A DNA stretch of 64,000 nt from assembly GCA_018333515.1 (NCBI GenBank), contig JAGXSZ010000005.1, positions 62,001 to 126,000 on the forward strand, written 5' to 3'. Both the position numbers and the translations under genes were made by a program. A model generated the notes under the pieces. It worked only from the letters and a program-made list of their open reading frames with translations, did no database searches and was not told the DNA's origin. The DNA is from Actinomycetota bacterium. GTDB lineage: Bacteria > Actinomycetota > Aquicultoria > Aquicultorales > Aquicultoraceae. How positions within the stretch are numbered: position 1 is the stretch's first letter; each line of letters starts with the position of its first letter. This document shows, one piece after another, positions 4,529 through 21,202 of the stretch.

Positions 4529-5569
4529 TTAACCACCCGTCTTCTCTAAGACTCGCCGCACAGCCGCCATCGCCGCGTCAACTCCTAACGCCTCGACCAC
4601 GCCGGCCGCGCCCCCGCCGTCGACACCGGAACCGTCTTCACCACAAGATTCGCTACCGGCATCACTGCCCGCAAGACCCTCCTCTGTCGCAACACCCTTT
4701 TCCGCCACAACGCACTCATTGGCCCCAACGTCCAAGACATGACCAACCTTACTATCATCTTCACCCACAACACCAGGCCGCCTAAGAACGACCAGCGCAA
4801 TGCCCAGCCGCTTCGCCGCCTCGACCTTCTCGGGAAACCCCCCTTCGCGCCCGCTCTCTTTGGTGACGACGACAGTAACGCCGAGGCTCCTCCACAGCCG
4901 CTCGTTCTCCTCGACGCTGAACGGGCCGACGCCGGTTATGATATGCTCGGGCGCAAAGCCCGCATCAAGGCACTTGGCGACCGACTCGTCGCCCGGCAAA
5001 ACTCGGATATAAACACGATGCGATACCATGTCGATTACCTTGGCAAACAAGCCGGCCTGGTTACTGCCGGTCGCGATAAATATCGCCGCGCCCGGCCCCT
5101 GTGCTTGCGCCTGCGATTGCACTTGTAATTGTCTCTGCGCCAGTCCCTCTGCGATACGCGCCGCATCTTCCATCGACTCGACGTACTCAATATTTTCGTA
5201 ATCGGGGTTCCCTGCGACCGCCCTGCCAACCCTCAAATAAGGAACACCTGCAATCTCGCTCGCCGCGAGCGCATTTTCGGTAACTCCCATCGCGAACGGG
5301 TGGGTCGCGTCGACGACAAGCGCTATCTTCTCGCTATCGATAAGCACGACCATCGCATCTGCGTCGAGCTTGCCGGCGATGTGCTTGACTAGTGGGTTTT
5401 CGGCGGCGAGCGAGTCGATAAACTCGGCGGCGAAATCGTAGGCGGTGCTGAATATGACGGGGATGCGCTCATTAATAAGTTGTTCCAGCAGCAGGCGGGC
5501 CTCGGTGGTGCCCCCTAAGAGCAGGATCACACCCGGCAACCCCTTTGCATACGGTCTGCTAAATGACAT
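4529..5569 (-). CDS. cobK: Precorrin-6A/cobalt-precorrin-6A reductase with low-complexity extension
   Basis: This protein reduces (cobalt-)precorrin-6A with NAD(P)H in corrin ring synthesis. Family hallmarks are GVILLLGGTTEARLLLEQL near the N-terminus, DATHPFAMGVTENA, IFIATGSNQAG, IITGVGPFSVEEN and VVTKESGREGGFPEK. At 346 residues it is about 90 longer than usual. The excess is a Gly/Ala/Glu-rich C-terminal tail from about residue 260 and a Gln-rich linker (QVQSQAQAQGP) near residue 160, both probably disordered. No clear Shine-Dalgarno precedes the ATG. The 5' coding region is partly duplicated just upstream, across the cobJ stop codon. Confidence 0.9.
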   Translation of the reverse strand: MSFSRPYAKGLPGVILLLGGTTEARLLLEQLINERIPVIFSTAYDFAAEFIDSLAAENPLVKHIAGKLDADAMVVLIDSEKIALVVDATHPFAMGVTENALAASEIAGVPYLRVGRAVAGNPDYENIEYVESMEDAARIAEGLAQRQLQVQSQAQAQGPGAAIFIATGSNQAGLFAKVIDMVSHRVYIRVLPGDESVAKCLDAGFAPEHIITGVGPFSVEENERLWRSLGVTVVVTKESGREGGFPEKVEAAKRLGIALVVLRRPGVVGEDDSKVGHVLDVGANECVVAEKGVATEEGLAGSDAGSESCGEDGSGVDGGGAAGVVEALGVDAAMAAVRRVLEKTGG

Positions 5570-5617
5570 CGTAGTACCGGTCGTGTCCCGAGCAGCAGAA
5601 TCACACCCGGTAACCCC
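5519..5617. repeat. Short duplication of the cobK 5' coding region over the cobJ stop
   Basis: On the minus strand the bases that encode GLPGVILLLG near the cobK start are repeated about 70 bases upstream with a few mismatches. There they would read GLPGVILLLGT in another frame, and the TGA inside the copy is the stop codon of cobJ. It looks like a small duplication that separated once-overlapping genes. Confidence 0.6.
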
Positions 5618-6410
5618 TCGGTGTTATTATGCGCCCGTCCGATACATAGGTCTGGCTATTTCCGATGATTATGGTGGTGTTCATGTCTATCGGTAAATCC
5701 AAGAACGATGAGATGTCGCTGATGTAGCAATTCTGCGCGCCGTTCGATTTGATGTAGATTCCGACCGGGGTCTTCGCGTCTCTGTGCTGCATGAATATAT
5801 CCTGGGCGGTCTTAATCTGCCAGTTTCGCTTGATGCTTTTGGGGTTATATAGGGCCGTTACGAAATCGGCCGTCGCGGCGGCGCGCAGGCGTTTTTCAAT
5901 CTTCTCCCAGGGGGTAAGCAAATCGCTCAGGCTGATGACCGCGAAGTCGTGCATGAGCGGCGCCCCGAGCGCGGATGCCGCGGCGTTGACCGCGCTTACG
6001 CCCGGCATTATCTCGATATCGATGTCGGTATCGGCGGCCAGCTCGAGAACGAGCCCGGCCATACCGTAGATGCCGGGGTCACCGCTGCTGATAAGGGCGA
6101 CCGTCTTTCCGGCCTGCGCGAGTTCGATGGCTTTCTTGCACCGCTCTATCTCTTTGCGCATCGCAAACCGGTGGACCTCTTTGCCCTGGGCATACTTCTC
6201 GATTGTCTTTACGTAGCTCTTATATCCGACGATGACGTCGCATTCCCTGAGCGCGTCGCGCGCGCCTATCGTCATATCGGCTTCGTCGCCCGGACCGATG
6301 CCGACTACTATTATCCCTGCTCGGCCAGTGCGACCGTTACTTTTCCATGCACAGTCTTCGGTAGTATCAGGGTTCCGCCCTCCGAGACTAGAATCGCCGC
6401 TGGTTCGCAT
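5601..6410 (-). CDS. cobJ: Precorrin-3B C17-methyltransferase
   Basis: The protein contracts and methylates the corrin ring at C17 using S-adenosylmethionine. The tetrapyrrole-methylase signature is clear: IIVVGIGPGDEADMT, VIVGYKSYV, LISSGDPGIYGMAG, IMPGVSAVNAAAS, and a C-terminal ALYNPKSIKRNWQI typical of CobJ/CbiH. The family start should be near GIIVVGIG, but no standard start codon lies there. The only in-frame ATG is at 6410, which adds about 32 residues and overlaps cbiG by 100 bases. Fusion to CbiG by frameshifting, or an unusual start, are alternatives. CbiG-CbiH fusions occur in other bacteria. Confidence 0.9.
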   Translation of the reverse strand: MRTSGDSSLGGRNPDTTEDCAWKSNGRTGRAGIIVVGIGPGDEADMTIGARDALRECDVIVGYKSYVKTIEKYAQGKEVHRFAMRKEIERCKKAIELAQAGKTVALISSGDPGIYGMAGLVLELAADTDIDIEIMPGVSAVNAAASALGAPLMHDFAVISLSDLLTPWEKIEKRLRAAATADFVTALYNPKSIKRNWQIKTAQDIFMQHRDAKTPVGIYIKSNGAQNCYISDISSFLDLPIDMNTTIIIGNSQTYVSDGRIITPRGYRV

Positions 6411-7336
6411 ACGCCATCAGCACCCACTTTCTCTTTCACAAAATCCGATTTATTGACGGCGACAGCATCGAGCTTGTCCGCCGGATATAGCTTTACTTCG
6501 ACGCCGAAATGTTCGGCCGCCTCGTAAAACGCCTTTTCCTCGTTTTTAATATCGATACTCGCGATGCCTTTCAAGTTATGGAGGTGTAAGCCCTGGCTGC
6601 CCAGAGCGCTCCGAATCGCATCGCGCACCTCGTCCAGGGTGACGCCTTTTCGCGAGCCGATACCGGCATATACGCGCCGGATCTTCAGTATCAAGGTTCC
6701 GGGCCGCACCTGCGGCACCTCCTCGTCTACGACAATGACCACGTGCTCGTAGGCGCTCCCATATCGTTTAAGCTGGTCGAGCGGGCGGACGCTGTACACC
6801 GCCCTCACCCGGTCACCCCAGCGCCCCAGGCCGATATCGGCGAAAATACACGCCGACTCGCCCCTAAGGATGCCCGATGAAACACGCGTCAGGCGCGGCA
6901 TATCGTCGGTCGTGAGGCCTAACTCTTTCATAAACAGGTCGAGCGCCGGTTTTCCGTGGATATCGGTAGCCGTCGTGATTACCGGAACCGCGCCGACCGC
7001 GTCGGATACTTTTATGGCGAGGTCGTTGGCGCCGCCGATGTGACCCGAAACGAGACTGACCGAAAACGCCCCGGCCTCATCGACGACTACGATAGCCGGG
7101 TCGACGGTCTTATCCCTGAGGTGCGGGGCTACCGCGCGAACCGCGATACCGACCGCCGAGATAAAGACCAGGCCGTCAAAGTCTAAAAATATCTCGCTCA
7201 CTAAGTCCAAGAGCCACGGTTTGTCGCGACCGATCTCCGGCGGCGTGAATATCTCCAACTCGTCATCGAATCGGGCTTTCATCCGGTCTGCGATTATCAG
7301 GCCGTTCTCGGTAACGGCTAAAACGGCGATTTTCAC
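6311..7336 (-). CDS. cbiG: Cobalt-precorrin-5A hydrolase
   Basis: CbiG opens the delta-lactone of cobalt-precorrin-5A and releases acetaldehyde, a step specific to the anaerobic pathway. This 341-residue protein has the CbiG N-terminal domain (FISAVGIAVRAVAPHLRDK, ALVSGHIGGAN-like SLVSGHIGGANDLA) and C-terminal domain (VYAGIGSRKGVT, LASIDIK-like IASIDIKNEEKAF). The start lies 86 bases past cbiF. Its 3' end overlaps the cobJ frame. Confidence 0.93.
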   Translation of the reverse strand: MKIAVLAVTENGLIIADRMKARFDDELEIFTPPEIGRDKPWLLDLVSEIFLDFDGLVFISAVGIAVRAVAPHLRDKTVDPAIVVVDEAGAFSVSLVSGHIGGANDLAIKVSDAVGAVPVITTATDIHGKPALDLFMKELGLTTDDMPRLTRVSSGILRGESACIFADIGLGRWGDRVRAVYSVRPLDQLKRYGSAYEHVVIVVDEEVPQVRPGTLILKIRRVYAGIGSRKGVTLDEVRDAIRSALGSQGLHLHNLKGIASIDIKNEEKAFYEAAEHFGVEVKLYPADKLDAVAVNKSDFVKEKVGADGVCEPAAILVSEGGTLILPKTVHGKVTVALAEQG

Positions 7337-7390
7337 TTTATGTCGCCTCCATATATATCATGGCCCGCCCTTTTAAACCTTCTCTGCCCT

Positions 7391-7447
7391 TTTCTAACCT
7401 TTGCCTGCGCGATACTCGTAATCTAACCTTCGCTTACGCGATACTCG
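7391..7447. repeat. 29-bp tandem duplication at the cbiF 3' end
   Basis: Two copies of a 28-base unit (7391-7418 and 7420-7447) match at 24 positions. The second copy encodes the last residues and stop codon of cbiF on the minus strand. The first is the same sequence repeated after the stop, still able to encode YEYRAGKG and another stop. A replication-slippage product. Confidence 0.8.
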
Positions 7448-8178
7448 TGACTGAACGCCGGGTCGTAGAGTTTCGAACGCTCGTACTCGCCGGCGAGAAC
7501 GCCTCCGACGATTATCATCGCGGTCTTCGTTATACCCGCTTCGCCGACTTTCGAGGTGATGTCGGCGAGCGTACCTTTGATTACGCGCTCATCCGGCCAA
7601 GACGCTTTCTCGACCACGGCGACGGGCGTATCATTCGGATATCCCTGCTTAAGCTCGCCCACGAGTGAGTCTATCATTTGCACGCTTAAAAATATGCACA
7701 TCGTCGGCTTGTGCTCCGCCAAGGCATGGATTTCCTGGCCTTGTGGAACCGGCGTGCGCCCCGCCATCCTAGTGATGACGACCGTTTGCGAGATGCCCGG
7801 CAACGTCAACTCCGCGCTGAGCGCCGCGGCCGCGGCCGCGAACGAGCTGACACCCGGTACAATCGCGTACTCTATCCCATTGGCGACGAGCCAATCTATC
7901 TGCTCTTTTATAGCTCCGTAAATACTGGGCTCGCCGGAATGGAGACGAACCACGGTCTTTCCGGTACCTTTGGCCGCCGCATAAACGGCGGTTACTTCAT
8001 CGAGGTTGAGCGCCGCGCTGTCATGGAATTCGCAGCCTTCCTTGCACGATTCAAGGAGCCGCCCGTTGATGAGCGAACCCGCGTAAACAACGATATCCGC
8101 CCGCTCAAGCACGCTTTTTCCTTTTACCGTTATAAGGTCGGGGTCGCCCGGACCCGCGCCGACAAAATATACCTTCAT
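7423..8178 (-). CDS. cbiF: Cobalt-precorrin-4 C11-methyltransferase
   Basis: This SAM-dependent methylase acts on C11 of cobalt-precorrin-4. The 251 residues contain VYFVGAGPGDPDLITVKG, VVYAGSLIN, VVRLHSGEPSIYGAI, IVPGVSSFAAAAAAL and ITRMAGRTPVP, all characteristic of CbiF/CobM rather than its paralogues. Length is normal. The 3' end carries a tandem duplication immediately downstream. The upstream gap to cbiL is 192 bases and contains a palindromic repeat. Confidence 0.95.
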   Translation of the reverse strand: MKVYFVGAGPGDPDLITVKGKSVLERADIVVYAGSLINGRLLESCKEGCEFHDSAALNLDEVTAVYAAAKGTGKTVVRLHSGEPSIYGAIKEQIDWLVANGIEYAIVPGVSSFAAAAAALSAELTLPGISQTVVITRMAGRTPVPQGQEIHALAEHKPTMCIFLSVQMIDSLVGELKQGYPNDTPVAVVEKASWPDERVIKGTLADITSKVGEAGITKTAMIIVGGVLAGEYERSKLYDPAFSHEYRVSEG

Positions 8179-8293
8179 GATCCATATTACCTTTATTCCA
8201 ATAAAGACGCGGAAGTTTTCGAGTTACAGACGCGTTTGCGCATCTCGCTCGCGCTTCACACCCATAACCCAGGGCGCGTAGCCCTCTCCTCGT

Positions 8294-8313
8294 TCAGGGC
8301 TTTAGCCCTGATA
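8294..8313. repeat. Interspersed palindrome, copy 1
   Basis: The 20-base sequence TCAGGGCTTTAGCCCTGATA is identical to 13415-13434. Its centre AGGGCTTTAGCCCT is self-complementary except for one central position. It lies in the cbiF-cbiL gap and looks like a REP-type element. It could stabilise or attenuate the operon mRNA. Confidence 0.7.
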
Positions 8314-8370
8314 AACAACGCATAGCCCACATCCAACCAAAGGGTCGGCCATGAAGGGCTTAAGCTACAG

Positions 8371-9114
8371 TCAAGCGAACTCCACATCGCGCTTGACGAT
8401 GACGGTCGACAGATACCCGGCATTGTCCAACGTTTCGTCATCGAGCGCGGACAAACCCATGACGACATTCTCTTCCGCGTCATGAGAAGCTTTTTGGACC
8501 AGAACGGCGTTGTTCAAAAGGCCGAAGCCGCTCAACACTTTGACCAGCGCGCGCAGTCGCTCGCCGACTTTTAAGATGACGACCGTATCGAAGGTCTCCA
8601 GGTAGTGCCATATCTCACCTATTACCTCCGGTAGCGGCAAGATGGCGACCTTCTCGTCTCCGACGGCTATCGGTATGCCCGCAGCGGCCGCGGCCGCGAA
8701 TGGCGAACTCACGCCCGGCAACGTTACAACCTCGATTTCAGGATGTTCTTCCTTCAGTTTTCTATAGAGGTAGATATATGTGCTGTAAAAGAACGGGTCG
8801 CCGAGGGTAATAAAGGCTCCGCTCTTGCCCTCGCTCAATGCCTTCGCGACCTCGTCCGCCGCTTCCGACCAATGTTTTTCAAGCTCGTTCCTGTCTTTGG
8901 TCATTGGAAATATAAGTTCCCTGAACTCGGCATTGCCGTCTAACACCGGCTCGACGATTCTCTTTGCGATGCTCTCCCGTTTAGGGGCCGAGCGCGGCGA
9001 GAATATGATATCGACCGATTTAAGGACGTTTACGGCCTTGATCGTGAGTAGCTCGGTATCGCCGGGCCCGATGCCTACTCCAAATAGTCTTCCTCGGTCA
9101 GCCAATCTAATCAC
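8371..9114 (-). CDS. cbiL: Precorrin-2/cobalt-factor-II C20-methyltransferase
   Basis: This 247-residue tetrapyrrole methylase methylates C20 of (cobalt-)precorrin-2. Motifs: GRLFGVGIGPGDTELLTIKA, DIIFSPRS, FPMTKD, ALSEGKSGAFITLGDP, YSTYIYLYRKL, and VTLPGVSSPFAAAAAAG. The YSTY stretch is typical of the CobI/CbiL subgroup. It lies 61 bases past cbiE on the same strand. Confidence 0.94.
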   Translation of the reverse strand: MIRLADRGRLFGVGIGPGDTELLTIKAVNVLKSVDIIFSPRSAPKRESIAKRIVEPVLDGNAEFRELIFPMTKDRNELEKHWSEAADEVAKALSEGKSGAFITLGDPFFYSTYIYLYRKLKEEHPEIEVVTLPGVSSPFAAAAAAGIPIAVGDEKVAILPLPEVIGEIWHYLETFDTVVILKVGERLRALVKVLSGFGLLNNAVLVQKASHDAEENVVMGLSALDDETLDNAGYLSTVIVKRDVEFA

Positions 9115-9175
9115 CCTATCCGTTTCGATTTATCCGCGGCCGCCAACCCACGAAGGCGCTCGCCGTCCCAACGAT

Positions 9176-9790
9176 TTAACTCTCTATCTCTATATATACC
9201 ACGCTTGACTCGAATCCTTCCAGTTTTGCCAATTCCGCAAGCGTGGTATCGACTATCCTCTCATCATCATACGAGAGATTGGCCCCGGCTACCACCCGGC
9301 CGGTTATTCCCTTGTCCGCGAGATAGCGCGCAATCGCCGGCGCGCTGTGGACATTATCCGTCAAGATGCAGAAACGCTTGTGCGTTTTTATCACGGTATC
9401 GAGCGCATCCAGCGAGCGCCCGTGGACCGACGCGAGCGCCGTGCCCTGCCACTCCTCGCCGATTCGCCCGAAGAGCATTTGCATCGAGTTCACGCCCGGA
9501 ACCGCGTCGAGCGCGATTTCGGGGAGCCGGTCGCGAATGGTCTTGAGCAAGCTATAGAAACCAGGGTCGCCGCTGACTACGACGACGGTGTTGCGCTCTT
9601 TGTTCTTGTCTATCGCCGCTATCGCCGCCGAAATATCGGCTGTGACCTCGATGACTTCCTTTTGCGCGACATCGATGGCGTCGAGCACCCGTCTGGCCCC
9701 GATTACCACCTCGGCCGCGCCGATTCTTTTGACGGCGGCGGGCGTTATATAGTCCGGATGGCCCGGGCCGATACCGACTACCGTCACCAT
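9176..9790 (-). CDS. cbiE: Cobalt-precorrin-7 C5-methyltransferase (CbiE domain only)
   Basis: This 204-residue protein has the CbiE methylase signature: VTVVGIGPGHPDYITPAA, VVIGARRVLDAI, VVVSGDPGFYSLL, DAVPGVNSMQMLFGRIG, ALASVHGR. In many bacteria CbiE is fused or adjacent to CbiT, which methylates C15 and decarboxylates. Here the protein ends after the CbiE domain and no CbiT is found in the window. Its ATG overlaps the cbiD stop codon by seven bases. Confidence 0.94.
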   Translation of the reverse strand: MVTVVGIGPGHPDYITPAAVKRIGAAEVVIGARRVLDAIDVAQKEVIEVTADISAAIAAIDKNKERNTVVVVSGDPGFYSLLKTIRDRLPEIALDAVPGVNSMQMLFGRIGEEWQGTALASVHGRSLDALDTVIKTHKRFCILTDNVHSAPAIARYLADKGITGRVVAGANLSYDDERIVDTTLAELAKLEGFESSVVYIEIES

Positions 9791-10902
9791 GCCGCATCCT
9801 TTACTATCTTGCGCGACGCGCTATCGGACGCGACAATCTCGCCCGATAGCACCGTTATCGCCGTGCCAATCTCCAGGTTACCGTCGACGTAGGCGCGCGC
9901 CTGCGCGCTCGCCGCCTGCGCTATTTTATCGAGCATACGGCTGTATCCCAACTTCGCGAGGCCTAACGCCGCGTCTTCGGCGGTGTTCACTTTTATCATA
10001 TACGTCATCGGCGCGATATCTTTCGTCTCGTTCCGGATTAGTCTCTTCATTATCTCGACCGGGTCGTCGGTCTTTCCGCTGTGTGTGTCGAAGTGGCCCG
10101 CCGCGACCTTGACGAGCTTACCGATATGCCCGAGCAGAACTACTCTTTCGACTCCCGCTTTGACGCAATAATCGAGCATATAGCCGACGAAATTGCTCAT
10201 CTGGACTATCGCGTCGGGCGGAAACTTTAACCTCGACTCCGCCGCTTTGGCGCCCATGTTCCCCGGCACCAGCGCTATCGTCTTATAGCCGAGCGCGAGC
10301 GCGATGTCGACCTGCGGGGTGAGCGAGGCCTTAAGGCTATCGAGCGACATCGGCCGCACGATTCCCGTCGTCCCTAAAATCGATATGCCGCCGACAATTC
10401 CGAGCCGCGCGTTAAAGGTCTTCTTGGCGCGTTCGGTTCCTTCGGGCGCAAAAATCGTTACTTCGACACCGGCTCCATCCGGGATATTTCGCGATACGTT
10501 AGCGGTTATCATCGCTCTGGGTACCGGGTTTATCGCCGGCTCACCGACCGCGACCGCCAGGCCGGGCTTGGTCACCGTCCCGATGCCTTCGCCGCCCCTA
10601 ATCGTTATCCCGGCGTCCGCGCGGGCGACCCGCGCGCAAATCTTCATCCCATCGGTCACATCCGGGTCGTCGCCTGCGTCTTTTACGATGCAACAGCCGA
10701 CGTTCTCGGCGGTCTTCTCGATATCGACGACGTCGAACTCGACGCGGCGGCCTCCGGGCAGCTCGACTTCGATGCGCGAAACAACCTCGCCGCCAAAGAG
10801 CATCTTTGCGGCCGCGGCCGAAGCCGCCGCCGCGCATGTGCCCGTCGTATAGCCCTTCTTCAACCTCTTATTTATGACACTGACTCTACTTACACTCCTC
10901 AT
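9784..10902 (-). CDS. cbiD: Cobalt-precorrin-5B C1-methyltransferase
   Basis: CbiD methylates C1 in the anaerobic pathway and is a marker for it. The N-terminal hallmark KKGYTTGTCAAAASAAAA and the later EVTIFAPEGTERAKKTFN, GGISILGTTGIVRPMS, LVPGNMGAKAA and LLGHIGKLVKVAAGHFDTHSG are all present. The ATG at 10902 gives 372 residues. A TTG three codons earlier is possible. The start overlaps the end of the cbiX-cbiC gene by 17 bases and its stop overlaps cbiE. Confidence 0.95.
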   Translation of the reverse strand: MRSVSRVSVINKRLKKGYTTGTCAAAASAAAAKMLFGGEVVSRIEVELPGGRRVEFDVVDIEKTAENVGCCIVKDAGDDPDVTDGMKICARVARADAGITIRGGEGIGTVTKPGLAVAVGEPAINPVPRAMITANVSRNIPDGAGVEVTIFAPEGTERAKKTFNARLGIVGGISILGTTGIVRPMSLDSLKASLTPQVDIALALGYKTIALVPGNMGAKAAESRLKFPPDAIVQMSNFVGYMLDYCVKAGVERVVLLGHIGKLVKVAAGHFDTHSGKTDDPVEIMKRLIRNETKDIAPMTYMIKVNTAEDAALGLAKLGYSRMLDKIAQAASAQARAYVDGNLEIGTAITVLSGEIVASDSASRKIVKDAAW

Positions 10903-11911
10903 TACACGCAATCATCAATAAAGCGTTGATCGCGGAGGCGGCCAACGCACTTCCGCCCCGCGTTCCCCGCACGGTTATATAATTAAGCCCGGCCCTCATC
11001 AGAGCCTCTTTCGACTCCGCGGCCCCAACGAACCCGACCGGCGCGCCGACGACGAGCGCCGGCCTCACCACGCCTTCTTTCGCTATATCGAGCAGCTCGA
11101 AGAGGGCGGTCGGCGCGTTTCCGATAGCGATGACCGCGCCATCGGCATGGTTCGAGAGCGAGCGTATCGCCATCGCGCTTCTGGTCTTCCCGGCGCGCCT
11201 AGCATCGTCCTCGACAGCCTTGTCGTCTATCCTGCAGAGCACGTTGTTGTCGTGTATGCAAGTCCGGCGGTCGCTGATGCCCACCGCGACCATGCGCACA
11301 TCGGTTATTATCGGACAGCAGCTTCTCAGCGCATCGACCCCGGCCTCGACGGCGCCGTCCGACATCGCCACCACGCCCGAGAGCGTAAGGTCGCCGCTCG
11401 CGTGTATCATGCGTTTTACGACCGACCGCTCCATATCCGAAAAGCCGTTTAAATCCGCGACCGCCTCGATTATACGGAAGCTCTCCCGCTCGATTTTTGC
11501 GGGGTCACCGATTTTCATGCCGTTCCCGTCGGCGTCAAAGCCGCCTGCCAGCAGCTCGTTGGCGCGCTCAATCAAGATGTCGGCGATTCTAACATCCGGC
11601 CCGATATGCTCGGCGACCTTTATCTTGAGTAAAGGGTATTTCACTTCCTCATCCCTTATAATCTCGGGAATATCCTGCCTTATGTGGTTGCCGTCGACCA
11701 TAAAGAGCGGCATGATGATTAACTCGGTCACGCCTTCGTCGGCCAGCGATTCTATGACTTCCGGCAGGTCGGGCTCGTTAAATTGGAGCGCCGCATAACG
11801 CACGAACTCCGATTGGAGCCGACTCCTGAGCGTCGCCGCTATTTCTTCGAGTATCTCCTTGGTCTCCTCGACCTTGCTCCCGTGCCCCAGCACGATAAAG
11901 CCAGTGCTCAT
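10886..11911 (-). CDS. cbiXC: CbiX sirohydrochlorin cobaltochelatase fused to CbiC precorrin-8X methylmutase
   Basis: Residues 1 to about 125 form a small CbiX-type chelatase that inserts cobalt into sirohydrochlorin, with active-site histidines H10 (VLGHGSK) and H76 (GNHIRQDIP). Residues about 130-341 form CbiC, which moves the C11 methyl group to C12, with the catalytic H170 in KRMIHASGD and the C-terminal GAPVGFVGAAESKEAL, RGTRGGSALAASA. This joins the entry step and a late ring step in one chain. Lone genes are commoner, but fused arrangements exist. It heads the cbiDELFGHJ run. Confidence 0.95.
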   Translation of the reverse strand: MSTGFIVLGHGSKVEETKEILEEIAATLRSRLQSEFVRYAALQFNEPDLPEVIESLADEGVTELIIMPLFMVDGNHIRQDIPEIIRDEEVKYPLLKIKVAEHIGPDVRIADILIERANELLAGGFDADGNGMKIGDPAKIERESFRIIEAVADLNGFSDMERSVVKRMIHASGDLTLSGVVAMSDGAVEAGVDALRSCCPIITDVRMVAVGISDRRTCIHDNNVLCRIDDKAVEDDARRAGKTRSAMAIRSLSNHADGAVIAIGNAPTALFELLDIAKEGVVRPALVVGAPVGFVGAAESKEALMRAGLNYITVRGTRGGSALAASAINALLMIACNEECK

Positions 11912-11999
11912 TCAATCACCCCTACTAAACTTGTCAGAACTCTATCCCATGCTCCCAAATTACAAGTAACACTAAAGTAAACATTCAAGTAAAATCGCT

Positions 12000-13394
12000 C
12001 TAAATACTGCCCATACGGCTCGAGTTTGCCCGGCATGACGCCAGAAAACGCTCGACTACCCGCGGGTATCCCGCGAAATGGAGGTGTATATAGGACGCTA
12101 ACGTATTATTATATATGAAACCTTCGTGTTCCGTGACGCCGACTTCGTACGCCCGCTCCAGGTCGTTCGCGGATTCCGTAATCTCCGAGTAATGGAACTC
12201 GTGGCCCCTCAAGAGAGAGCCTTGTTCGGCGATTATGGAATCGGCTGCCGCAACCGCCACGCGATAGCCGAGGGTAGCGCGGCTTTTCATCTTGCACGCT
12301 ATGGGGAGCGCGCCGCTCATCCGATAGCGGTTACCGGCGAAATCGACTACCGCTTCCGAGAGATAGATTAAACCGCCGCACTCCGCGTAGACCGCCATAC
12401 CGTCCTCGACCGCCCGCTTTATGTCGGCCGCCATCGATAGGTTGGCCGCGAGCGCCGCGGCATGGACTTCGGGATACCCGCCACCGAGATAGAGACCTTC
12501 GATGTCTTCCGGCAAACGCTCATCCTCCAATGGGCTAAAGAAGACCAGCTCGGCCCCGGCTTCGCGCAACATATCGAAGTTGTCGCGATAATAGAAACTG
12601 AACGCTTTATCGAAGGCGACGCCTATCTTTACGTCGGCTCTCGCATTACCGGCAGTCTTTGCGGGTGGGTTCGATTTCGCCGATGTCACCGGATACGGTG
12701 TTGACGCGGCAATCTCTAACAGCAACTTCAAATCGATATAGCTCTCCGCCAGCTCGACCAGGGCGTCTACATAATCTCCGGCGGGTCCCAGCTCCACCCG
12801 CGTTACCAGACCGAGATGCCGCTCGGGGACGACGACGGCCGCGTCTCGCCGCACGACGCCGACGACCGGCAACCCGGTCGCAGCCTCAACCGAACTCTTG
12901 ACCATTTTCTCATGGCGGTCGCTTCCGACATTGTTTAGAAGAAACCCCTGTATGCCGGCGGCTTCATCGTAGGCGCGATAGCCGAGCGCCATAGCGCCCG
13001 CGCTCCCGCCCGTCTTGGCGCAGTCTATCGTCAGCAACACCGGGGCCCGTACCGTCTTGGCGACATCGGCGGTACTCCCCTCGACCAGGCCGTTTTTGCC
13101 GTCGTAAAAACCCATCACGCCTTCGACTATCGAGATACCCGCCCGGAGCGCCGCGTTTTCAAAAAGGCTTCGCGCGGTGTCCCGCCCGGTCATCCAGATA
13201 TCGAGATTGCGCCCGGGTCGGCCTGTGACCATCTCGTAGTAGCCGGGGTCTATAAAGTCCGGGCCGACTTTGAAGCCCTGCACGCCCAAGCCGCGCCTGG
13301 TCAGCGCCGCCATAATCGCGAGCGCCAGAGTCGTCTTCCCGACCCCGCTCGACGTCCCAGCTATGACTATCCTCGAAAGCGTCTTAATTTCCAT
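12000..13394 (-). CDS. cbiA: Cobyrinate a,c-diamide synthase
   Basis: CbiA amidates the a and c acetate side chains using glutamine and ATP. The 464-residue protein (from ATG 13394) has an ATP-binding P-loop G13-T22 (GTSSGVGKTT), VGPDFIDPGYYEMVTGRPGR-type substrate residues, VMGFYDG, and a C-terminal class I amidotransferase domain with nucleophile C339 (VYAECGGLIYL). A longer in-frame extension upstream reads through a palindromic repeat and is not expected to be translated. A gap of 88 bases separates it from cbiXC. Confidence 0.95.
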   Translation of the reverse strand: MEIKTLSRIVIAGTSSGVGKTTLALAIMAALTRRGLGVQGFKVGPDFIDPGYYEMVTGRPGRNLDIWMTGRDTARSLFENAALRAGISIVEGVMGFYDGKNGLVEGSTADVAKTVRAPVLLTIDCAKTGGSAGAMALGYRAYDEAAGIQGFLLNNVGSDRHEKMVKSSVEAATGLPVVGVVRRDAAVVVPERHLGLVTRVELGPAGDYVDALVELAESYIDLKLLLEIAASTPYPVTSAKSNPPAKTAGNARADVKIGVAFDKAFSFYYRDNFDMLREAGAELVFFSPLEDERLPEDIEGLYLGGGYPEVHAAALAANLSMAADIKRAVEDGMAVYAECGGLIYLSEAVVDFAGNRYRMSGALPIACKMKSRATLGYRVAVAAADSIIAEQGSLLRGHEFHYSEITESANDLERAYEVGVTEHEGFIYNNTLASYIHLHFAGYPRVVERFLASCRANSSRMGSI

Positions 13395-13409
13395 GATATT
13401 CTCACACTC

Positions 13410-13486
13410 GTAGCTCAGGGCTTTAGCCCTGATATTGCTCAACGTTCCGCTTGCTGCTACTCAATCAGCCCTAAAGGGCTGAGCTA
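13410..13486. repeat. Paired palindromes forming a large inverted repeat, copies 2 and 3
   Basis: At 13415-13434 is an exact copy of the 20-base palindrome at 8294-8313. At 13465-13482 is a related palindrome with core CAGCCCTAAAGGGCTG. The flanks CGTAGCTCAG and CTGAGCTACG are themselves complementary. The pair can therefore fold as one long imperfect hairpin between cobD and cbiA. This is REP-like and of unknown function. Confidence 0.7.
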
Positions 13487-14626
13487 CGGTAAACACACTC
13501 TCAGCGCGGCGAGCAACCTATCGTTGTCCCGGGGGCGTTTGACCGCCACCCTGAAGTAGCGCTCGTCTAAACCGGTGTATGAGCCGCAATCGCGAATCGC
13601 TATCCCGCGCCGCAACATCTCTACCTGCAACTTAGCCGATGTCATCGACCGCTCGCCGTCTTCGATTTCGACCAATATATAATTGGTCGACGGCTCATAA
13701 ACTCTCAACCCCGCGACACCCGAGATTTCCAGAGAGAGCCGACGCGCTTCCGCTGCCAGCGACGCGGCGCTCGACTCCGCGAAATCGCCCGCCCCAAGCG
13801 CGGCGATACCGGCTTCGAGGGCGATATTGTTGACGCTCCAGGGATGCTTTTCGGCGCGCACCTTCCGCGCCAAGGCGGTTGACCCTATCATATAGCCAAG
13901 CCTTAAACCCGCAATACCGTACATCTTCGTCAGCGACCTCAAGACCACCACATTCTCGCGCGCTATAGCGTCGTTGGCGAGCGTAGCCCGCTCCGGCGCC
14001 TCGACAAAATCGATAAACGCTTCATCGATTACCCAGAGACAACCCGGCCGCTCATCGATAAGGTCGAGTAAGTCACCGCGCCCAATTGCGTACCCGCAAG
14101 GGTTGTTGGGGTTGCCGATAATCGCCATATCCGTCTCGCGCGACGCCTCTTCGAGCCGCTCCAGCGCGGTTGCGGCATCGAGTGCTTTCTCGTAGGCTAT
14201 CTCGGCTCCCGTTTTCTTTAGCGCGATTTTCTTTAGCGCGATCTCGTATTCGGTAAAACTCGGCACCAGCAACAGAGTCCGCCGCGCATCCCACGCCCGC
14301 GGAATTATATATATCAGCTCGATGCTCCCGTTGCTTGCGACTATATTTTCCGGGTCGACCCGCAAGGCATCGGCCGCCGCCGCAACGAAGCTCTCCGCCT
14401 GCTGCTCGGGATACTCGCTAATGCTCTCGACCGCGCGCCTAACAGCGGCCATTACATTCTCGGGCGGCCCGTATGGGTTGATGTTGGAGCTAAAATCGAC
14501 CAATTCGCCACCGTCGATTCCCAGCCGCTCCGCCAGCCGTTTTATGTTGCCCCCGTGCTCACTTAGTCTATCCGTTTCGTCACTCCCCGTTATCCCGTCC
14601 CAATATCCAATTATCGCGGCTGTCAA
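13484..14626 (-). CDS. cobD: L-threonine-O-3-phosphate decarboxylase-like PLP enzyme
   Basis: This PLP-dependent fold-type I enzyme resembles histidinol-phosphate aminotransferase and CobD. In a cobalamin operon next to an L-threonine kinase, it most likely makes the aminopropanol phosphate linker. Visible motifs: HGGNIKRLAERLG and VDFSSNINPYGPP at the N-terminus, IGNPNNPCGY, VIDEAFIDF, and the PLP lysine in RSLTKMYGIAGLRLGYM. The start is a TTG without a strong Shine-Dalgarno sequence. The family start could be a few codons later. It lies 20 bases past pduX. Confidence 0.88.
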   Translation of the reverse strand: MTAAIIGYWDGITGSDETDRLSEHGGNIKRLAERLGIDGGELVDFSSNINPYGPPENVMAAVRRAVESISEYPEQQAESFVAAAADALRVDPENIVASNGSIELIYIIPRAWDARRTLLLVPSFTEYEIALKKIALKKTGAEIAYEKALDAATALERLEEASRETDMAIIGNPNNPCGYAIGRGDLLDLIDERPGCLWVIDEAFIDFVEAPERATLANDAIARENVVVLRSLTKMYGIAGLRLGYMIGSTALARKVRAEKHPWSVNNIALEAGIAALGAGDFAESSAASLAAEARRLSLEISGVAGLRVYEPSTNYILVEIEDGERSMTSAKLQVEMLRRGIAIRDCGSYTGLDERYFRVAVKRPRDNDRLLAALRVCLP

Positions 14627-14646
14627 AAGCCGCGCCCCCGACTCTC

Positions 14647-15528
14647 CTACGCGGTCACAATAAAGGCCCGGTCATCGGCATAGCGTACGCCGCCATCGAC
14701 GAGCCTTACCAGATAAGCGTTGCATGCGCGCGGTATCAAATGCGAGACCCGCTCGAACAACCGCTGCCCGTAGCCCGCCTCCGCGAGCATCCCCATCACG
14801 CTCCCGCTGTGCGCCACATTGACGCCGACGCCGCCCTTTCGCCTGCAAACATCTATTACGTCGGGCAAGACCGGCTTCATCAACAGCTTCTGATTGAGAA
14901 GCGCGCTCATCGAGGCCGCCTCCCCCAAAAGCCGTATATCCCAGGATTTGATGGCGGTGACCGCCATATCCAATGCTTCGCCTATTAGGTGCTCGTCGAC
15001 CGAATGCGACGAGAGTTTGTTCTTATTAAAAACGACCGTATCCACCTCTTCGGGCGGCTCGAGAACGAGTATGTCGAGCGGCGGCGCGGCCCCTATCGGC
15101 TCGAACCTTAAGCCCTTCCGGTGGTCGTAGATGACGATGCCGTCGAAGAAGATGCCGTCGGTGGGCTCGATTGAGAGCGCTATCTTAGCAAGCTCCTCGG
15201 TGGAGGCGGCTTGCCCGAGGGCGAGACGCGTTGCCGTTACGGCGGCCGCGATATCGGCGGTGCTCGACGCCATGCCCTTGCCGTGCGGGATGTCACTAAC
15301 GATATCGATGCTCACCCCGGCCGGGATGCCGCTCCGCTCAATCGTCAGACGGACCGCCTCGGCTGTTTTATCGAGTCCGTCCGCGACGATAACCCGGCCA
15401 TTGCGCTCTACCGTCGCCGTCGCCGTCGAAAACCTATCTATCGGGCATGTGACGTGAAAATCGACGCCGCCAATCGTCCCCTGGACCAGCTCGCCGCAGC
15501 TCCCCGGCACCATCACTCTTATAGCCAT
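14647..15528 (-). CDS. pduX: PduX-type L-threonine kinase (GHMP kinase)
   Basis: This 293-residue GHMP-family kinase has the ATP motif DIPHGKGMASSTADIAAA near residue 85 and VPGSCGELVQGTIGG at the N-terminus, typical of PduX. PduX phosphorylates L-threonine to supply CobD. Its stop lies 20 bases before cobD, and its ATG directly abuts the cobO stop codon. This context supports the PduX call over other GHMP kinases. Confidence 0.88.
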   Translation of the reverse strand: MAIRVMVPGSCGELVQGTIGGVDFHVTCPIDRFSTATATVERNGRVIVADGLDKTAEAVRLTIERSGIPAGVSIDIVSDIPHGKGMASSTADIAAAVTATRLALGQAASTEELAKIALSIEPTDGIFFDGIVIYDHRKGLRFEPIGAAPPLDILVLEPPEEVDTVVFNKNKLSSHSVDEHLIGEALDMAVTAIKSWDIRLLGEAASMSALLNQKLLMKPVLPDVIDVCRRKGGVGVNVAHSGSVMGMLAEAGYGQRLFERVSHLIPRACNAYLVRLVDGGVRYADDRAFIVTA

Positions 15529-16065
15529 TTAATATTCTATCCCCCAGCGAGCTGGAATCCCCTCATCAAAGGGGTGCTTTAACATCTTAAACTCGGTAAC
15601 GTAATCGGCGATATCCATTAAGTCGCGGGGGGCGTTGCGCCCGGTCATCACCAGCTCTGTCTTGCCCTTGCAGAGCCGCGCCAGCTCGAGCACCTCGCCT
15701 AAATCGGCAAGGCCCGTCGAGAGCGCGACATTTATCTCGTCTAGAATGAGCAGCTCGCAGGAGCCGCCCTCAACCAAGTCCCGTGCTTTTTGCAGGCCCG
15801 CCGAGATATCCGCCTTTATCGTCTCGACCGGTGGATGGTCCTTTTTGAGCAAGTTCCCTCCGAAGCGCGATACCGAGACCGAATCGAAGCCCTTAATCGT
15901 CGTTATCTCACCCGACTCTTCGCTCTCGCCCTTCATAAATTGGATGATACAGACGCGAAAACCGCTCCCGACGGCGCGCACCGCAAGCCCGACGGAGGCC
16001 GTCGTCTTTCCTTTGCCGTCACCAGTATATATATGGATTAAACCGAGTTCTTTCTTCTGGTCCAT
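15529..16065 (-). CDS. cobO: Corrinoid adenosyltransferase (CobO/BtuR type)
   Basis: This ATP:cob(I)alamin adenosyltransferase attaches the upper ligand. The 178 residues contain the P-loop HIYTGDGKGKTTASVGLA, VCIIQFMKG, and LLILDEINVALSTGL, and end with PFDEGIPARWGIEY. Homologues end similarly. No truncation. It sits between pduX and cbiB in the operon. Confidence 0.95.
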   Translation of the reverse strand: MDQKKELGLIHIYTGDGKGKTTASVGLAVRAVGSGFRVCIIQFMKGESEESGEITTIKGFDSVSVSRFGGNLLKKDHPPVETIKADISAGLQKARDLVEGGSCELLILDEINVALSTGLADLGEVLELARLCKGKTELVMTGRNAPRDLMDIADYVTEFKMLKHPFDEGIPARWGIEY

Positions 16066-16126
16066 CGATGTCTTTCCTAGTAGTTCACTGATAAAGATTT
16101 ATACGCAATCTGCTTGCTTCAACAAT

Positions 16127-17113
16127 TTAACCGCCAAACAATTTAACCAACTGCCCGAAGTCCGCGCCGATTAAGAAATATACCGCGCGCCCGATAAGCA
16201 CGGTAATCGCCGATGCGACAAAGACGAGCCAGGCGACCTCGTTGATGTTCTTCTGGGTGAGCGCTCCTTTGGCGTCGCCCAAGAAACCGCTCGTTCTAGC
16301 TACACCGTCATAGCGGTTCGTCCCACCGAGGCGCACGCCCATTGCTCCGGCTACCGCCGCCTCGGGGTAGCCGCTGTTGACGCTGGCGTGTTTGCGCCCG
16401 TCGCGTACCGCGACCGTCAGGGCTTTTAGAGCATCCCGGCGTATCAACAGTGCGGAAATCGACAATATCAAGACCGAAACGCGAGCCGGGATGTAGTTGA
16501 CGATATCGTCGAGGCGCGCGGCGGCCCATCCGAAATCCTCATACCGCTCGTTTTTGTACCCGAGCATCGAATCGAGCGTGTTGACCGCTTTATACGCCAT
16601 CGCCAGCGGCGCTCCGCCTATCATGGCGAAGATTAGCGGCGCTATGACGCCGTCGACCGCGTTTTCGGAGACCGACTCTATCGTCGCGCGTACCACGTCC
16701 TTGCGCTTCATAGTCTTAGTGTCGCGCCCGACTATCTCGGCGACCTTCAACTTCGCCTCGCTCAAATCGTCGCTATCTAGCGCGCGTGCCACGTCCTTCG
16801 CGCTATCGAGAAGGCCGCGCGTCGCAATGGTCGTCGATATCAGCCAAATCGAGACGATAAACCCTAATGTAAAGTGGACCTGGTATGCAAAGTATATGAT
16901 TGCCCAGGTTGTGCCCGCGCTTAACGCTACGACCACGGCGACGACCAGCGCGCCCGCAACCCGCTTCGCCGCCGCGCTCAACTCGCGGGCCAACACCCGG
17001 CCTTCGAGATAAGCGATAAAGCGGCCTATCAGGACGACCGGATGCGGTATCATCCTCGGGTCACCGATGGCAAGGTCGACCACGTAAGCAATGGCCACTT
17101 GAACCCACAACAC
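16127..17113 (-). CDS. cbiB: Adenosylcobinamide-phosphate synthase, membrane protein
   Basis: CbiB condenses adenosylcobyrate with aminopropanol (phosphate). The 328-residue protein has several hydrophobic segments and the family motifs LAIGDPRMIPHPVVLIG, ATIESVSENAVDGVIAPL, YKAVNTLDSMLGYKNERYEDFGWAAARLDDIVNYIPAR and GYPEAAVAGAMGVRLGG (each only partly quoted). The start is GTG at 17113 with GGAG six bases upstream, inside the end of cbiP. Confidence 0.94.
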   Translation of the reverse strand: MLWVQVAIAYVVDLAIGDPRMIPHPVVLIGRFIAYLEGRVLARELSAAAKRVAGALVVAVVVALSAGTTWAIIYFAYQVHFTLGFIVSIWLISTTIATRGLLDSAKDVARALDSDDLSEAKLKVAEIVGRDTKTMKRKDVVRATIESVSENAVDGVIAPLIFAMIGGAPLAMAYKAVNTLDSMLGYKNERYEDFGWAAARLDDIVNYIPARVSVLILSISALLIRRDALKALTVAVRDGRKHASVNSGYPEAAVAGAMGVRLGGTNRYDGVARTSGFLGDAKGALTQKNINEVAWLVFVASAITVLIGRAVYFLIGADFGQLVKLFGG

Positions 17114-17114
17114 A

Positions 17115-18638
17115 TTAAACTCCTATCAAACTAAAGATATAATCCATATCGAGGCTCGACTCGACGACGCCGGCCAGCCTATCGAGTTCTTTATCCCGAT
17201 AGACCCGGTAATCGACACCCAGGCTGTCTTTCACCAGCCCTTTGCGCTCTTTCAAATAGTCGAGAACCGACTTCCTGAAAAGGCCGTTGTCGAAGAGGCC
17301 GTGTATGTATGTGCCGAGCACCAGCCCGTCGTCCGAGACGCAACCGTCGCTGATATCTTCAGCTCCGGCGCCCCTTTTGACTATCCTGAAGGCGTCGTCG
17401 GCTCCGTTGAGCCGGTGCGTGACGCCCATATGTATCTCATAACCTGTTATTTTACCACCAGTCGCGCCGTTAAGCATCTTGCCGCCGCCCCTAACCTCGG
17501 CTTCGACCTGCACGGTGACCTTCTCGCGCGACATCCGGGTGCCGCAACTCAAGAGCCCGATACCCTCGATAGCCTTGCGGTCGCTCTCGATTCCGAACTC
17601 GTCCTCGATAAACTCGCCGAGCATCTGGTAGCCGCCGCAAATGCCGATGACCGGCGTCCCGGCGAGCCTGCTCTCCCGTATGCGGGCGGCCATGCCGGTC
17701 TCGTGGAGCGCCGCCATGTCCTCGACGGTATTCTTCGACCCCGGTATGATGATGAGGTCGGTCTCGCCAATCGGCTCCCCCGGAAAGACATAGCGCAGGT
17801 TGACGCCCGGCTCGTGCCCGAAGGTGTCGAGGTCGGTAAAGTTCGCGATGCGCGGCAGTCGAATGACCGCGATATCGACGGCGGCCCCGTTTGCGGTTAC
17901 GCGGTTGGCCCGATCGAGCGCGAGCGAATCCTCGCTGTCTATCTTGAGGTCGAGCACATACGGGACGGTACCGAGCACCCTGACTCCCGTTCTTTCTTCT
18001 ATGAAATCGATTCCCGGCGTCAGCAGGCTCACATCGCCGCGGAACTTGTTGATTATCAAGCCCTTCACCAAGTCGCGCTCGTCTTCGTCGAGCAGCTCGA
18101 GGGTGCCGACGAGTGAGGCGAAGACCCCGCCCCGGTCGATATCTCCAACGAGCATCACCGGAGCGCCCGCCATCTTGGCGATTCTCATGTTCGAGATATC
18201 CTCTTTTTTCAGGTTTATCTCGGCCGGGCTGCCCGCGCCCTCGATTACCACGACATCGTTGTGCGCGCGCAATATCCCCAACGATTCCTCGACCAACCCC
18301 AGGAGGCCCGCCTTTTCTTCGTGATATTCACGCGCCGAAAGGTTTTTATAGACCTTGCCGCGCACGATTACTTGAGCGCGCCGGTTGTCCGTCGGTTTTA
18401 AGAGGATTGGATTCATGTGGACGGACGGCTCGATTCGCGCCGCCATCGCCTGCAACGCCTGCGCCCGCCCTATTTCACAGCCGTCCACAGTGGGATACGA
18501 GTTTAGCGCCATGTTCTGGCTCTTAAACGGCGCCGTTTTGACGCCTTTATTAACGAGTATGCGACAGAGCGCCGCCGCCAACAGACTTTTTCCCGCGTCA
18601 GAGGAGGTCCCCTGAAACATTATGGTCTTTGCGTTCAT
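17115..18638 (-). CDS. cbiP: Cobyric acid synthase (glutamine-hydrolysing)
   Basis: CbiP amidates the b, d, e and g side chains. The 507-residue protein (ATG at 18638) carries KTIMFQGTSSDAGKSLLAA, FKSQNMALNSY, GSPAEINLK, DIDRGGVFASLVGTL, and the amidotransferase motif VIGICGGYQMLGE. A much longer frame extends upstream over cobU and encodes Arg/Gly-rich nonsense, so it is rejected. The ATG overlaps the cobU stop codon as ATGA, an expected translational coupling. Confidence 0.96.
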   Translation of the reverse strand: MNAKTIMFQGTSSDAGKSLLAAALCRILVNKGVKTAPFKSQNMALNSYPTVDGCEIGRAQALQAMAARIEPSVHMNPILLKPTDNRRAQVIVRGKVYKNLSAREYHEEKAGLLGLVEESLGILRAHNDVVVIEGAGSPAEINLKKEDISNMRIAKMAGAPVMLVGDIDRGGVFASLVGTLELLDEDERDLVKGLIINKFRGDVSLLTPGIDFIEERTGVRVLGTVPYVLDLKIDSEDSLALDRANRVTANGAAVDIAVIRLPRIANFTDLDTFGHEPGVNLRYVFPGEPIGETDLIIIPGSKNTVEDMAALHETGMAARIRESRLAGTPVIGICGGYQMLGEFIEDEFGIESDRKAIEGIGLLSCGTRMSREKVTVQVEAEVRGGGKMLNGATGGKITGYEIHMGVTHRLNGADDAFRIVKRGAGAEDISDGCVSDDGLVLGTYIHGLFDNGLFRKSVLDYLKERKGLVKDSLGVDYRVYRDKELDRLAGVVESSLDMDYIFSLIGV

Positions 18639-19201
18639 GCTAGACCCGTGTATTCGGCGTCCGCTATCCCGAGCGCCTTGATGTCGACCGGGACGCCGGC
18701 TATCGTCAAAATCACCTTGTCCGAGAGCGCGGCGATGCGCTGGTTGATAATCCCCAGCAAGTCGCGATACCTGCGCCCCACCGGATACTCCGGCACCACG
18801 CCCATACCCACCTCGTTCGAGACGATAAGGACCGTCTTTCCCGAGACGCTTGCGGCCTTTATGACATCGACAATCTCCTCGACAATCTCCAGGTCGTTGG
18901 CTATCTTGTGCATCCGTCGCCCGACATACACCGTCACGCAATCGATGATTACCGCGTCGGCACCGTCGGCCGCCTTCTCAAAGGTCTCGGATAGCCCCCC
19001 GTCGACCTCGTAGGTGGCCCAGTTGCTCGGCCTCACGCTCCGGTGTTGTTCGATGCGCTCGATCATCTCGTCGTCTATCCCCTCGGCGGTGGCGATATAC
19101 GCCACCTTGTCAAATCCCGACGCGATATTCTCGGCTAGCGCGCTCTTGCCGCTGCGCGCCCCGCCCAAAAACAAGATTACCGACCCGTTGTCTTTTTCCA
19201 T
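18635..19201 (-). CDS. cobU: Adenosylcobinamide kinase / phosphate guanylyltransferase
   Basis: CobU phosphorylates adenosylcobinamide and transfers GMP to it. From ATG 19201 it is 188 residues. It has P-loop ILFLGGARSGKSALAEN, AYIATAEGIDDEMIERI, QHRSVRPSNW, IIDCVTVYVGR and SNEVGMGVVPEYPVGRRYRD. A longer in-frame reading translates a riboswitch-like sequence and is not used. This start has GGGGAG only two bases upstream, so exact initiation is uncertain. It is the first gene of the cobalamin operon. Confidence 0.93.
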   Translation of the reverse strand: MEKDNGSVILFLGGARSGKSALAENIASGFDKVAYIATAEGIDDEMIERIEQHRSVRPSNWATYEVDGGLSETFEKAADGADAVIIDCVTVYVGRRMHKIANDLEIVEEIVDVIKAASVSGKTVLIVSNEVGMGVVPEYPVGRRYRDLLGIINQRIAALSDKVILTIAGVPVDIKALGIADAEYTGLA

Positions 19202-19206
19202 AACTC

Positions 19207-19259
19207 CCCGCGCCGGATTCTCACCGGCTTCCCTATTCTCCGCCCAAAGCGGCGCCTGG
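19207..19259 (-). promoter_or_regulatory. Partial cobalamin-riboswitch-like element
   Basis: On the minus strand, just before cobU, stretches AGGCGCCGCTTTGGGCGG and AATAGGGAAGCCGGTGAGAA followed by TCCGGCGCGG match the 5' half of the B12 riboswitch consensus (AATAGGGAA, GGTG-AA, TCCGG-GCGG). The expected following CCCGCCACTGT and the rest of the aptamer are absent because cobU begins there. It may be a truncated relic or a shortened variant. Confidence 0.6.
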
Positions 19260-19413
19260 ATATCCATATGCTCTTCGATTATATGCATAAATACCTGACC
19301 ATACAACCAATAGCGCGGCTCACTGCCGGTAAGTCTCTTGGCGCACCCGCCTCCGTATTCGCGGACAATAGCGGCGAGTCCCATGCATTTATCATGCGTA
19401 CGCGCGGTTTCTT

Positions 19414-19422
19414 TGCTATAAT
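19414..19422 (+). promoter_or_regulatory. Extended -10 promoter of rluB
   Basis: TGCTATAAT at 19414-19422 is a perfect extended -10 box on the plus strand, 38 bases before the rluB ATG. No convincing -35 hexamer is seen, as is common for extended -10 promoters. Confidence 0.6.
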
Positions 19423-19459
19423 CATAAGCGACTCGCAAACTATAGAAGCGGTGGGACAG

Positions 19460-20185
19460 ATGGAAGAGCGCTTACAAAAATTCATGGCACGCGCCGGAGC
19501 GGGGTCGCGCAGGCAGTGCGAAAAATATATCACCGACGGCAGGGTAAAGGTCAACGGCGAGGTCGTCGCCGAACTGGGTACGAAGGTCAATCCTACCACC
19601 GACCGGGTAGAACTCGACGACAAACTGCTCCGCCTTAAAGAAGCCCATATCTACCTGGCGCTCAACAAGCCCCCCGGCTTCTTGACGAGCGTTACCGATA
19701 ATTTCGGACGCCCCACGGTCATCGACCTTCTCGGCGGCATCAGCGACCGGGTTTTCCCCGTGGGCCGACTTGATTTAGACACCGAGGGTCTCCTGCTCCT
19801 GACCAACGACGGGGAGCTTGCCTTCCGGCTCACCCACCCCCGCTATAAAGTAAAGAAGCGCTATATCACCGAGGTCGAAGGCCATCCCGCCGACAGCGAC
19901 CTCGCGATGCTCCGCCAAGGCATCATGCTGGAGGACGGCATAACGGCCCCCGCCGAAGTCACCATCCTCAACCGCACCAAGGCCACATCGATAGTCGAGA
20001 TAACCATCCACGAAGGCCGAAAACGCCAAATACGCCGCATGTTCCAAACCGTCGGCCACGACGTCGTCATGCTAAAACGCATAGCCATCGACAACATAAT
20101 CCTCGGCGACATCCCCATAGGTGACTGCCGCCACTTGACCGAGGCGGAGATAGACAAACTTTATCGGGAGGTTAGGTTGAAGTAG
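19460..20185 (+). CDS. rluB: 23S rRNA pseudouridine synthase RluB-type
   Basis: This RsuA/RluB-family pseudouridine synthase has 241 residues. An S4 RNA-binding domain at the N-terminus (ERLQKFMARAGAGSRRQCEKYI, in two parts) precedes the catalytic domain with GRLDLDTEGLLLLTNDG, which contains the active-site Asp, and HEGRKRQIRRMF. The ATG at 19460 has GGTGGG upstream. A longer upstream reading is rejected on family length. It is divergent from cobU. In other Actinobacteria rluB usually follows scpB on the same strand, so it has been separated and flipped here. Confidence 0.94.
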   Translation: MEERLQKFMARAGAGSRRQCEKYITDGRVKVNGEVVAELGTKVNPTTDRVELDDKLLRLKEAHIYLALNKPPGFLTSVTDNFGRPTVIDLLGGISDRVFPVGRLDLDTEGLLLLTNDGELAFRLTHPRYKVKKRYITEVEGHPADSDLAMLRQGIMLEDGITAPAEVTILNRTKATSIVEITIHEGRKRQIRRMFQTVGHDVVMLKRIAIDNIILGDIPIGDCRHLTEAEIDKLYREVRLK

Positions 20186-20532
20186 GGTTGTGTTTTTTGG
20201 GGGTGGTTGTTTTGATAGGACCGCCCCTTGACCGTACCTGGATGAGGGGCATGTTTTCCCAAAAGGGGAAGATACTCTTGAGGGACATCAAACACGGGTT
20301 CAGGTGGAGCAATAGTTTGCGCCCGCTCCACCTCTAAATTGTAGCGTCCACTAAAGCTCTTTCCAGTAACTTGACTCACAATTTCTCTAGCCAACGCTTC
20401 CGCTAGAAGCGATGGAACAGCATTTCCAATTTGACGCTGGATTTCAACACGAGGGCCATCGATGCGAAAGGAGCGGGGGAAGGTTTTCAAAAACCGTAAA
20501 ATCGACAAGCGTGTGGCCGCTGAAACGTTCAT
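20161..20532 (-). pseudogene. C-terminal remnant of a DNA (cytosine-5) methyltransferase
   Basis: This 123-residue frame contains LRFLKTFPRSFRIDG followed by QRQIGNAVPSLLAEALAREI. The latter is motif X and the C-terminal end of C5-cytosine DNA methyltransferases. The catalytic PC motif IV, ENV motif VI and all upstream motifs are absent, and no methyltransferase sequence continues upstream. It is therefore a leftover 3' fragment, probably of a restriction-modification methylase. Its end overlaps the rluB 3' end by 25 bases on the opposite strand. Confidence 0.8.
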
Positions 20533-20821: not shown

Positions 20822-21202
20822 ATGAGGCCGGAAACAGAACTTTGGTGGAAGCAAGCAAATGAAGACTTAGTAACGGCGCGGGTTAACCTGTACGCCCGGC
20901 GCTATTATGCGTGCGTGTTTTTCGCGCATCAAGCCGCTGAAAAAGCATTAAAAGCGCTTTTTATTGAAACGATGAGAGAACTGCCCACAAAAACGCATAA
21001 TCTGATTGCGCTAGGGACAGCCCTAGAATCACCGGAGGAAATTATGACAAGTGTTCGAGATTTAGGACCCGAATACATAACCAGCAGATATCCGGATGCC
21101 GCCTATGGAGCGCCCGCCGAACTTTATGACGAAAAACTGGCAAGCGTACATCTTGTCCAAGCTGAGGAGATAGTTGCATGGGTCAAGCAGAAGTTAAAGT
21201 AG
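20822..21202 (+). CDS. HEPN-domain toxin of a HEPN-MNT pair
   Basis: This 126-residue all-alpha protein has the HEPN pattern WWKQANEDLVTARVNL, YYACVFFAHQAAEKALKAL and a putative active-site R-x6-H (R52 to H59, RELPTKTH), followed by TSRYPDAAYG. HEPN proteins of this type are RNases paired with a minimal nucleotidyltransferase antitoxin that may modify or AMPylate them. No Shine-Dalgarno is visible, and the close -10 box suggests a leaderless message. It overlaps the MNT gene by 25 bases. Confidence 0.9.
   Translation: MRPETELWWKQANEDLVTARVNLYARRYYACVFFAHQAAEKALKALFIETMRELPTKTHNLIALGTALESPEEIMTSVRDLGPEYITSRYPDAAYGAPAELYDEKLASVHLVQAEEIVAWVKQKLK

Follow-up and report, generated by a model that had tools for sequence, protein, structure and literature searches.

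The DNA directly upstream of cobU in this Candidatus Aquicultor genome (Actinomycetota; closest named relatives, Candidatus Aquicultor MAGs) raises the question of what half of a cobalamin riboswitch can be doing in front of a B12-synthesis operon: is it an element with a function of its own, or what is left of a riboswitch that once controlled the genes behind it? Within the window (the whole stretch of 64,000 nucleotides that was analysed), the minus strand carries the motifs AATAGGGAA, GCCGGTGAGAA and TCCGGCGCGG at about 19240-19207, and the sense-strand reading of the locus is TATAATCGAAGAGCATATGGATATCCAGGCGCCGCTTTGGGCGGAGAATAGGGAAGCCGGTGAGAATCCGGCGCGGGGAGTTATGGAAAAAGAC, the last bases of which are the cobU start codon at 19201. 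The first-pass annotation had recognised in these motifs the first half of a B12 aptamer, with cobU beginning where the second half should stand, and had offered two readings: a recent truncation that freed the operon from B12 repression, or a minimal variant aptamer.

The half-aptamer match is real and lies above chance. Scored on its own, the segment 19205-19275 matches the cobalamin riboswitch model RF00174 with 28.1 bits (E 3.4e-6), covering model positions 1-74 of 189 with the 3' side cut off, and with posterior probabilities that are mostly at their maximum. The aligned element (19205..19274, minus strand) comprises the 5' strand of P2, the P3 hairpin, the joining segment J3/4 (AATAGGGAA; AAUAGGGAA in the model alignment) and the P4 hairpin GCCGGTGAGAATCCGGC. 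When the wider region 18900-19460 is scanned, the best fit drops to 23.9 bits (E 4.4e-4), because the 3' half of the model is then forced onto cobU coding sequence; neither score reaches the gathering score of 31.5 bits, and no match at or above that score occurs anywhere in the 64-kb window. On this contig the closest complete aptamer (C5:60157-60338, 132 bits) lies about 21 kb away, just outside the window, and is a separate riboswitch located before cobT-cobS. The second half is indeed absent, as the first-pass annotation had stated: P5/P6, the B12 box (AGCCAGGAGACCUGCC) and the 3' strand of P2, that is, everything from CCCGCCACTGT onward, are missing from the locus, their place being taken by cobU coding sequence, and a scan of 19150-19470 returned no terminator-like site. 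A match of the group II intron model RF02003 over the same bases (20 bits, cut-off 49) was rejected as a chance match to GGTGA...TCC.

Comparison with relatives reveals what the locus looks like when complete. Six genomes of the same family (G002, G005, G006, G007, G008 and G010) have a complete RF00174 match directly before cobU, and P5/P6, the B12 box and the 3' strand of P2 are all present at these orthologous loci. The element of the window thus shares the 5' strand of P2, P3, J3/4 and P4 with the RF00174 family, as well as its position directly before a B12-synthesis operon, and the orthologous full-length copies establish common origin; it differs in lacking the 3' half (P5, P6 and B12 box) and a terminator, and in scoring below the family cut-off. 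Two weaker matches from the family were considered as further partial riboswitches, G004:C212:18178 (23.1 bits) and G008:C25:20253 (15 bits); both were discarded, as on inspection they have the appearance of coding sequence and of chance similarity.

Three of the relatives are particularly informative, with CobU orthologues identical to that of the window at 95% (Aquicultor sp. C1_metabat.bin.19, JAUXNY010000072, hereafter G003), 91% (G002, JASEGT010000001) and 70-71% (G010) of positions. In G002 the cobU leader shares with the window the promoter position, the 5' half of the aptamer, cobU downstream and rluB as divergent upstream neighbour, and the presence of rluB in both identifies the loci as orthologous; the G002 aptamer is complete, however, and is followed before cobU by an intrinsic-terminator-like hairpin (CCTTGGCCCGAGGCCGGGG-TTCTATTTAT, from a terminator scan), and its start lies 224 nt farther from the cobU ATG than in the window. 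G010, the second of the two relatives in which such a hairpin was looked at, likewise has a legible terminator-like hairpin after the aptamer, AAACCTTGGCGAAAGGCTGAGGTTTTT. G003 is the one other Aquicultor species with the deletion: its cobU leader has the same half aptamer, junction and start codon as the window, with 4 substitutions in 62 nt. As two separately assembled species share both the half and the junction, a single assembly error is ruled out.

Other features of this neighbourhood were noted in passing. A short ORF at 20161-20532 (minus strand) contains RQIGNAVP, comparable to the C-terminus of DNA cytosine methyltransferases, and is a putative gene fragment. By eye, two small two-gene modules near cobU/rluB, at 20822-21507 (plus strand) and 21916-22478 (minus strand), resemble a HEPN/MNT pair and a MazEF-type toxin-antitoxin pair.

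The promoter can be traced across the complete and the shortened loci. A probable -10 hexamer, TATAAT (19278..19283, minus strand), is conserved in G003, G002 and G010, and is separated by a 17-nt spacer from a probable -35 hexamer, TTGTAT (19301..19306, minus strand), which aligns with the TTGAAT-17-TATAAT that a promoter scan reported in G002; the scan did not call the -35 of the window because the hexamer matches at only 3/6 positions. Transcription is predicted to start at about 19271. From the aptamer start (GATATCC) to the cobU ATG there are 63 nt in the window, 287 nt in G002 and 279 nt in G010, so that about 216-224 nt are missing relative to these two genomes, with approximate breakpoints. 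These distances and the alignment place the deletion junction (CGGGGAGTT|ATG) at 19202..19211 on the minus strand.

We consider it probable, at roughly 0.88, that the element is what survives of an ordinary cobalamin riboswitch of the transcription-terminating type after a deletion of about 220 nt. Comparison with the complete loci shows that P5 and P6, the B12 box, the 3' strands of both P1 and P2 and the intrinsic terminator were lost, and that P4 now abuts the region immediately ahead of the cobU ATG. The promoter is still in place, as are roughly the first 70 nt of the leader, which now presumably serve as a plain 5' UTR. The truncation named by the first-pass annotation, with loss of the regulatory part, is thereby borne out, but 'recent' holds merely in a relative sense: the genome of the window (G000) and G003, which share the deletion, differ at 23/86 fourfold sites of cobU (27%), so if it was inherited the deletion is older than a substantial split. 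A tree of about 4.5 kb from three Aquicultor genomes places G000 and G003 as sisters with an ultrafast bootstrap of 74 (81 informative sites for this grouping, 71 and 48 for the alternatives). The species order is thus weakly resolved, and both genomes may have inherited the deletion or it may have spread by recombination.

A different fate for the surviving half would be co-option, in which P3 and P4 have been kept by selection as a new, B12-independent leader element controlling the corrin operon, possibly as a hairpin that stabilises the mRNA or controls translation, or as an element sensing another signal, in each case without binding B12. The rate of change bears on this. Between G000 and G003 the remnant differs at 4/62 sites, fewer than the fourfold sites of cobU (nominal P 0.002) and fewer than the upstream intergenic sequence (31/154; nominal P 0.014), and J3/4 and P4 are identical in the two genomes. 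This is slower than free decay predicts and counts against a wholly passive remnant, so that either a leader function or recent recombination may be involved. The slowly diverging stretch is not specific to the hairpins, however, but reaches from the promoter into the first cobU codons; its slow divergence may be due to the promoter and the start of translation, to a recent recombination event or to a function that the hairpins have kept, and the P values are nominal ones from two sequences. Moreover, the predicted folds of the G000 and G003 leaders disagree, with a pairing probability for P4 of just 0.3-0.6. Sequestration of the Shine-Dalgarno (SD) sequence is not consistent between these folds either, the SD being partly unpaired in G000 and more paired in G003. 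We therefore regard co-option as unlikely.

The minimal variant aptamer of the first-pass annotation, which would sense B12 with the 5' half alone, fares considerably worse. What remains of the aptamer is close to the family consensus, as this reading expects, but the B12-binding core of the RF00174 fold needs the half that is missing here: no four-way junction is possible without P5/P6, neither the B12 box nor the 3' strand of P2 has survived, and the terminator has gone as well. In addition, the P2 motif GGU has its U (T in the DNA) in 29/29 complete copies from the family loci, and reads GGC in both remnants, a change that is as expected once the pairing partner of the base has gone. With all of the 3'-half elements absent, and a base that is invariant among complete copies altered in both remnants, it is very unlikely that the remnant still works as a B12 aptamer, and we set the minimal variant aside as highly improbable.

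Less credible still is a circularly permuted aptamer, with its 3' half upstream of the 5' half. A stretch resembling the B12 box, GCCAAGAGACTTACC (about 19345-19331, within about 19400-19320 on the minus strand), matches the box at 12/15 bases, but a cmscan of 19300-19398 gave no RF00174 match at E values up to 10, and G003, which keeps the half aptamer, does not conserve the stretch (its sequence there is CTTTAGAGGCGTACC); G002 lacks any such upstream stretch and has a full aptamer downstream. The comparison with these two genomes refutes the candidate.

Finally, the conserved stretch might be coding. The cobU reading frame of the window stays open through the 79 codons that precede its ATG (19202..19438, minus strand), across both promoter and aptamer remnant, but the idea that these codons form the N-terminus of a longer CobU can be dismissed almost entirely, as in G003 a TAA stop (CTTTAA) inside the remnant closes the frame, the corresponding sequence in G002 and G010 belongs to riboswitch and terminator, the other relatives likewise have non-coding riboswitch sequence here, and the NCBIfam CobU model aligns to the short form only from its residue 7. 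The extension, which the first-pass annotation had also taken for false, is spurious. The gene itself (18635..19201, minus strand), encoding adenosylcobinamide kinase / guanylyltransferase (NCBIfam NF004469, 178.3 bits, above cut-off), starts at the ATG at 19201 (MEKDNGSVILFLGGARSGKS), which aligns with MDNIAGQVILFLGG in G002 and also with the G010 start. Just 2 nt separate an SD-like GGGGAG from this ATG, and the strength of cobU translation is therefore uncertain. More generally, automatic start-site calls can make a false N-terminus out of a riboswitch remnant.

If the element is the remnant of a truncated riboswitch, what of the genes downstream? Beyond cobU the corrin/cobalamin operon continues over 4529..18638 on the minus strand, as judged from ORFs and NCBIfam matches, in the order cbiP, cbiB, cobO/cobA, a GHMP kinase gene, cobD, cbiA/cobB, a cbiX-cbiC fusion, cbiD, cbiE, cbiL, cbiF, cbiG, cbiH and cbiJ. 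The run from cobU to cbiJ covers about 15 kb on one strand, and spacing and strand suggest that it is co-transcribed. Every one of these reading frames is open, which gives no indication that the pathway itself has decayed. Two of the genes merit separate mention: the GHMP kinase (14647-15528, minus strand) sits where PduX (L-threonine kinase) would be expected and has no NCBIfam match above its cut-off, and the ORF at 10886-11911 (minus strand) fuses a sirohydrochlorin cobaltochelatase-like (CbiX) domain to precorrin-8X methylmutase (CbiC).

A scan of the whole genome with RF00174 recovered three complete cobalamin riboswitches, the half aptamer of the window being the fourth match and the only one below threshold. 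Besides the riboswitch before cobT-cobS, complete copies precede a ThiC/BzaB-like gene (C19:29522-29817, 113.9 bits) and the cobalt transporter gene cbiM (C30:174251-174467, 107.3 bits), the latter followed by other ECF-type transporter genes. The C19 aptamer contains an insertion of more than 100 nt, and the gene behind it (L006:1097-2380) scores 588 bits with ThiC and 539 bits, below the cut-off, with the exception model for the lower-ligand protein BzaB; the combination of this gene and its riboswitch suggests anaerobic lower-ligand synthesis. In a third Aquicultor genome the cobT riboswitch (G001:C51:595-777) scores 58 bits, less than it otherwise would, because it includes a run of N from masking or a scaffold gap.

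With neither a B12-binding core nor a terminator, the operon from cobU to cbiJ should no longer be repressible by B12 through the remnant, while the three intact riboswitches should keep cobT-cobS, the ThiC/BzaB-like gene and cbiM cobalt transport under B12 control. The main corrin operon has thus very probably lost a B12 feedback that its close relatives still appear to have. As far as sequence can tell, the loss of riboswitch control would be confined to this operon of about 15 kb, the other three riboswitches being intact in sequence and presumably functional.

We found no description of a natural half-deletion of a cobalamin riboswitch in the open-access full texts searched; most subscription papers fall outside that scope, and we make no claim to priority. 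The locus offers a clean natural example of probable feedback loss: among species of a single genus, one has a full riboswitch ahead of its main corrin operon and two have the 5' half alone, and the other B12 riboswitches of the two half-aptamer genomes stay intact. This makes possible a direct comparison of before and after, through which the cost of B12 feedback, and the relationship of its loss to constitutive or excess B12 production, could be addressed.
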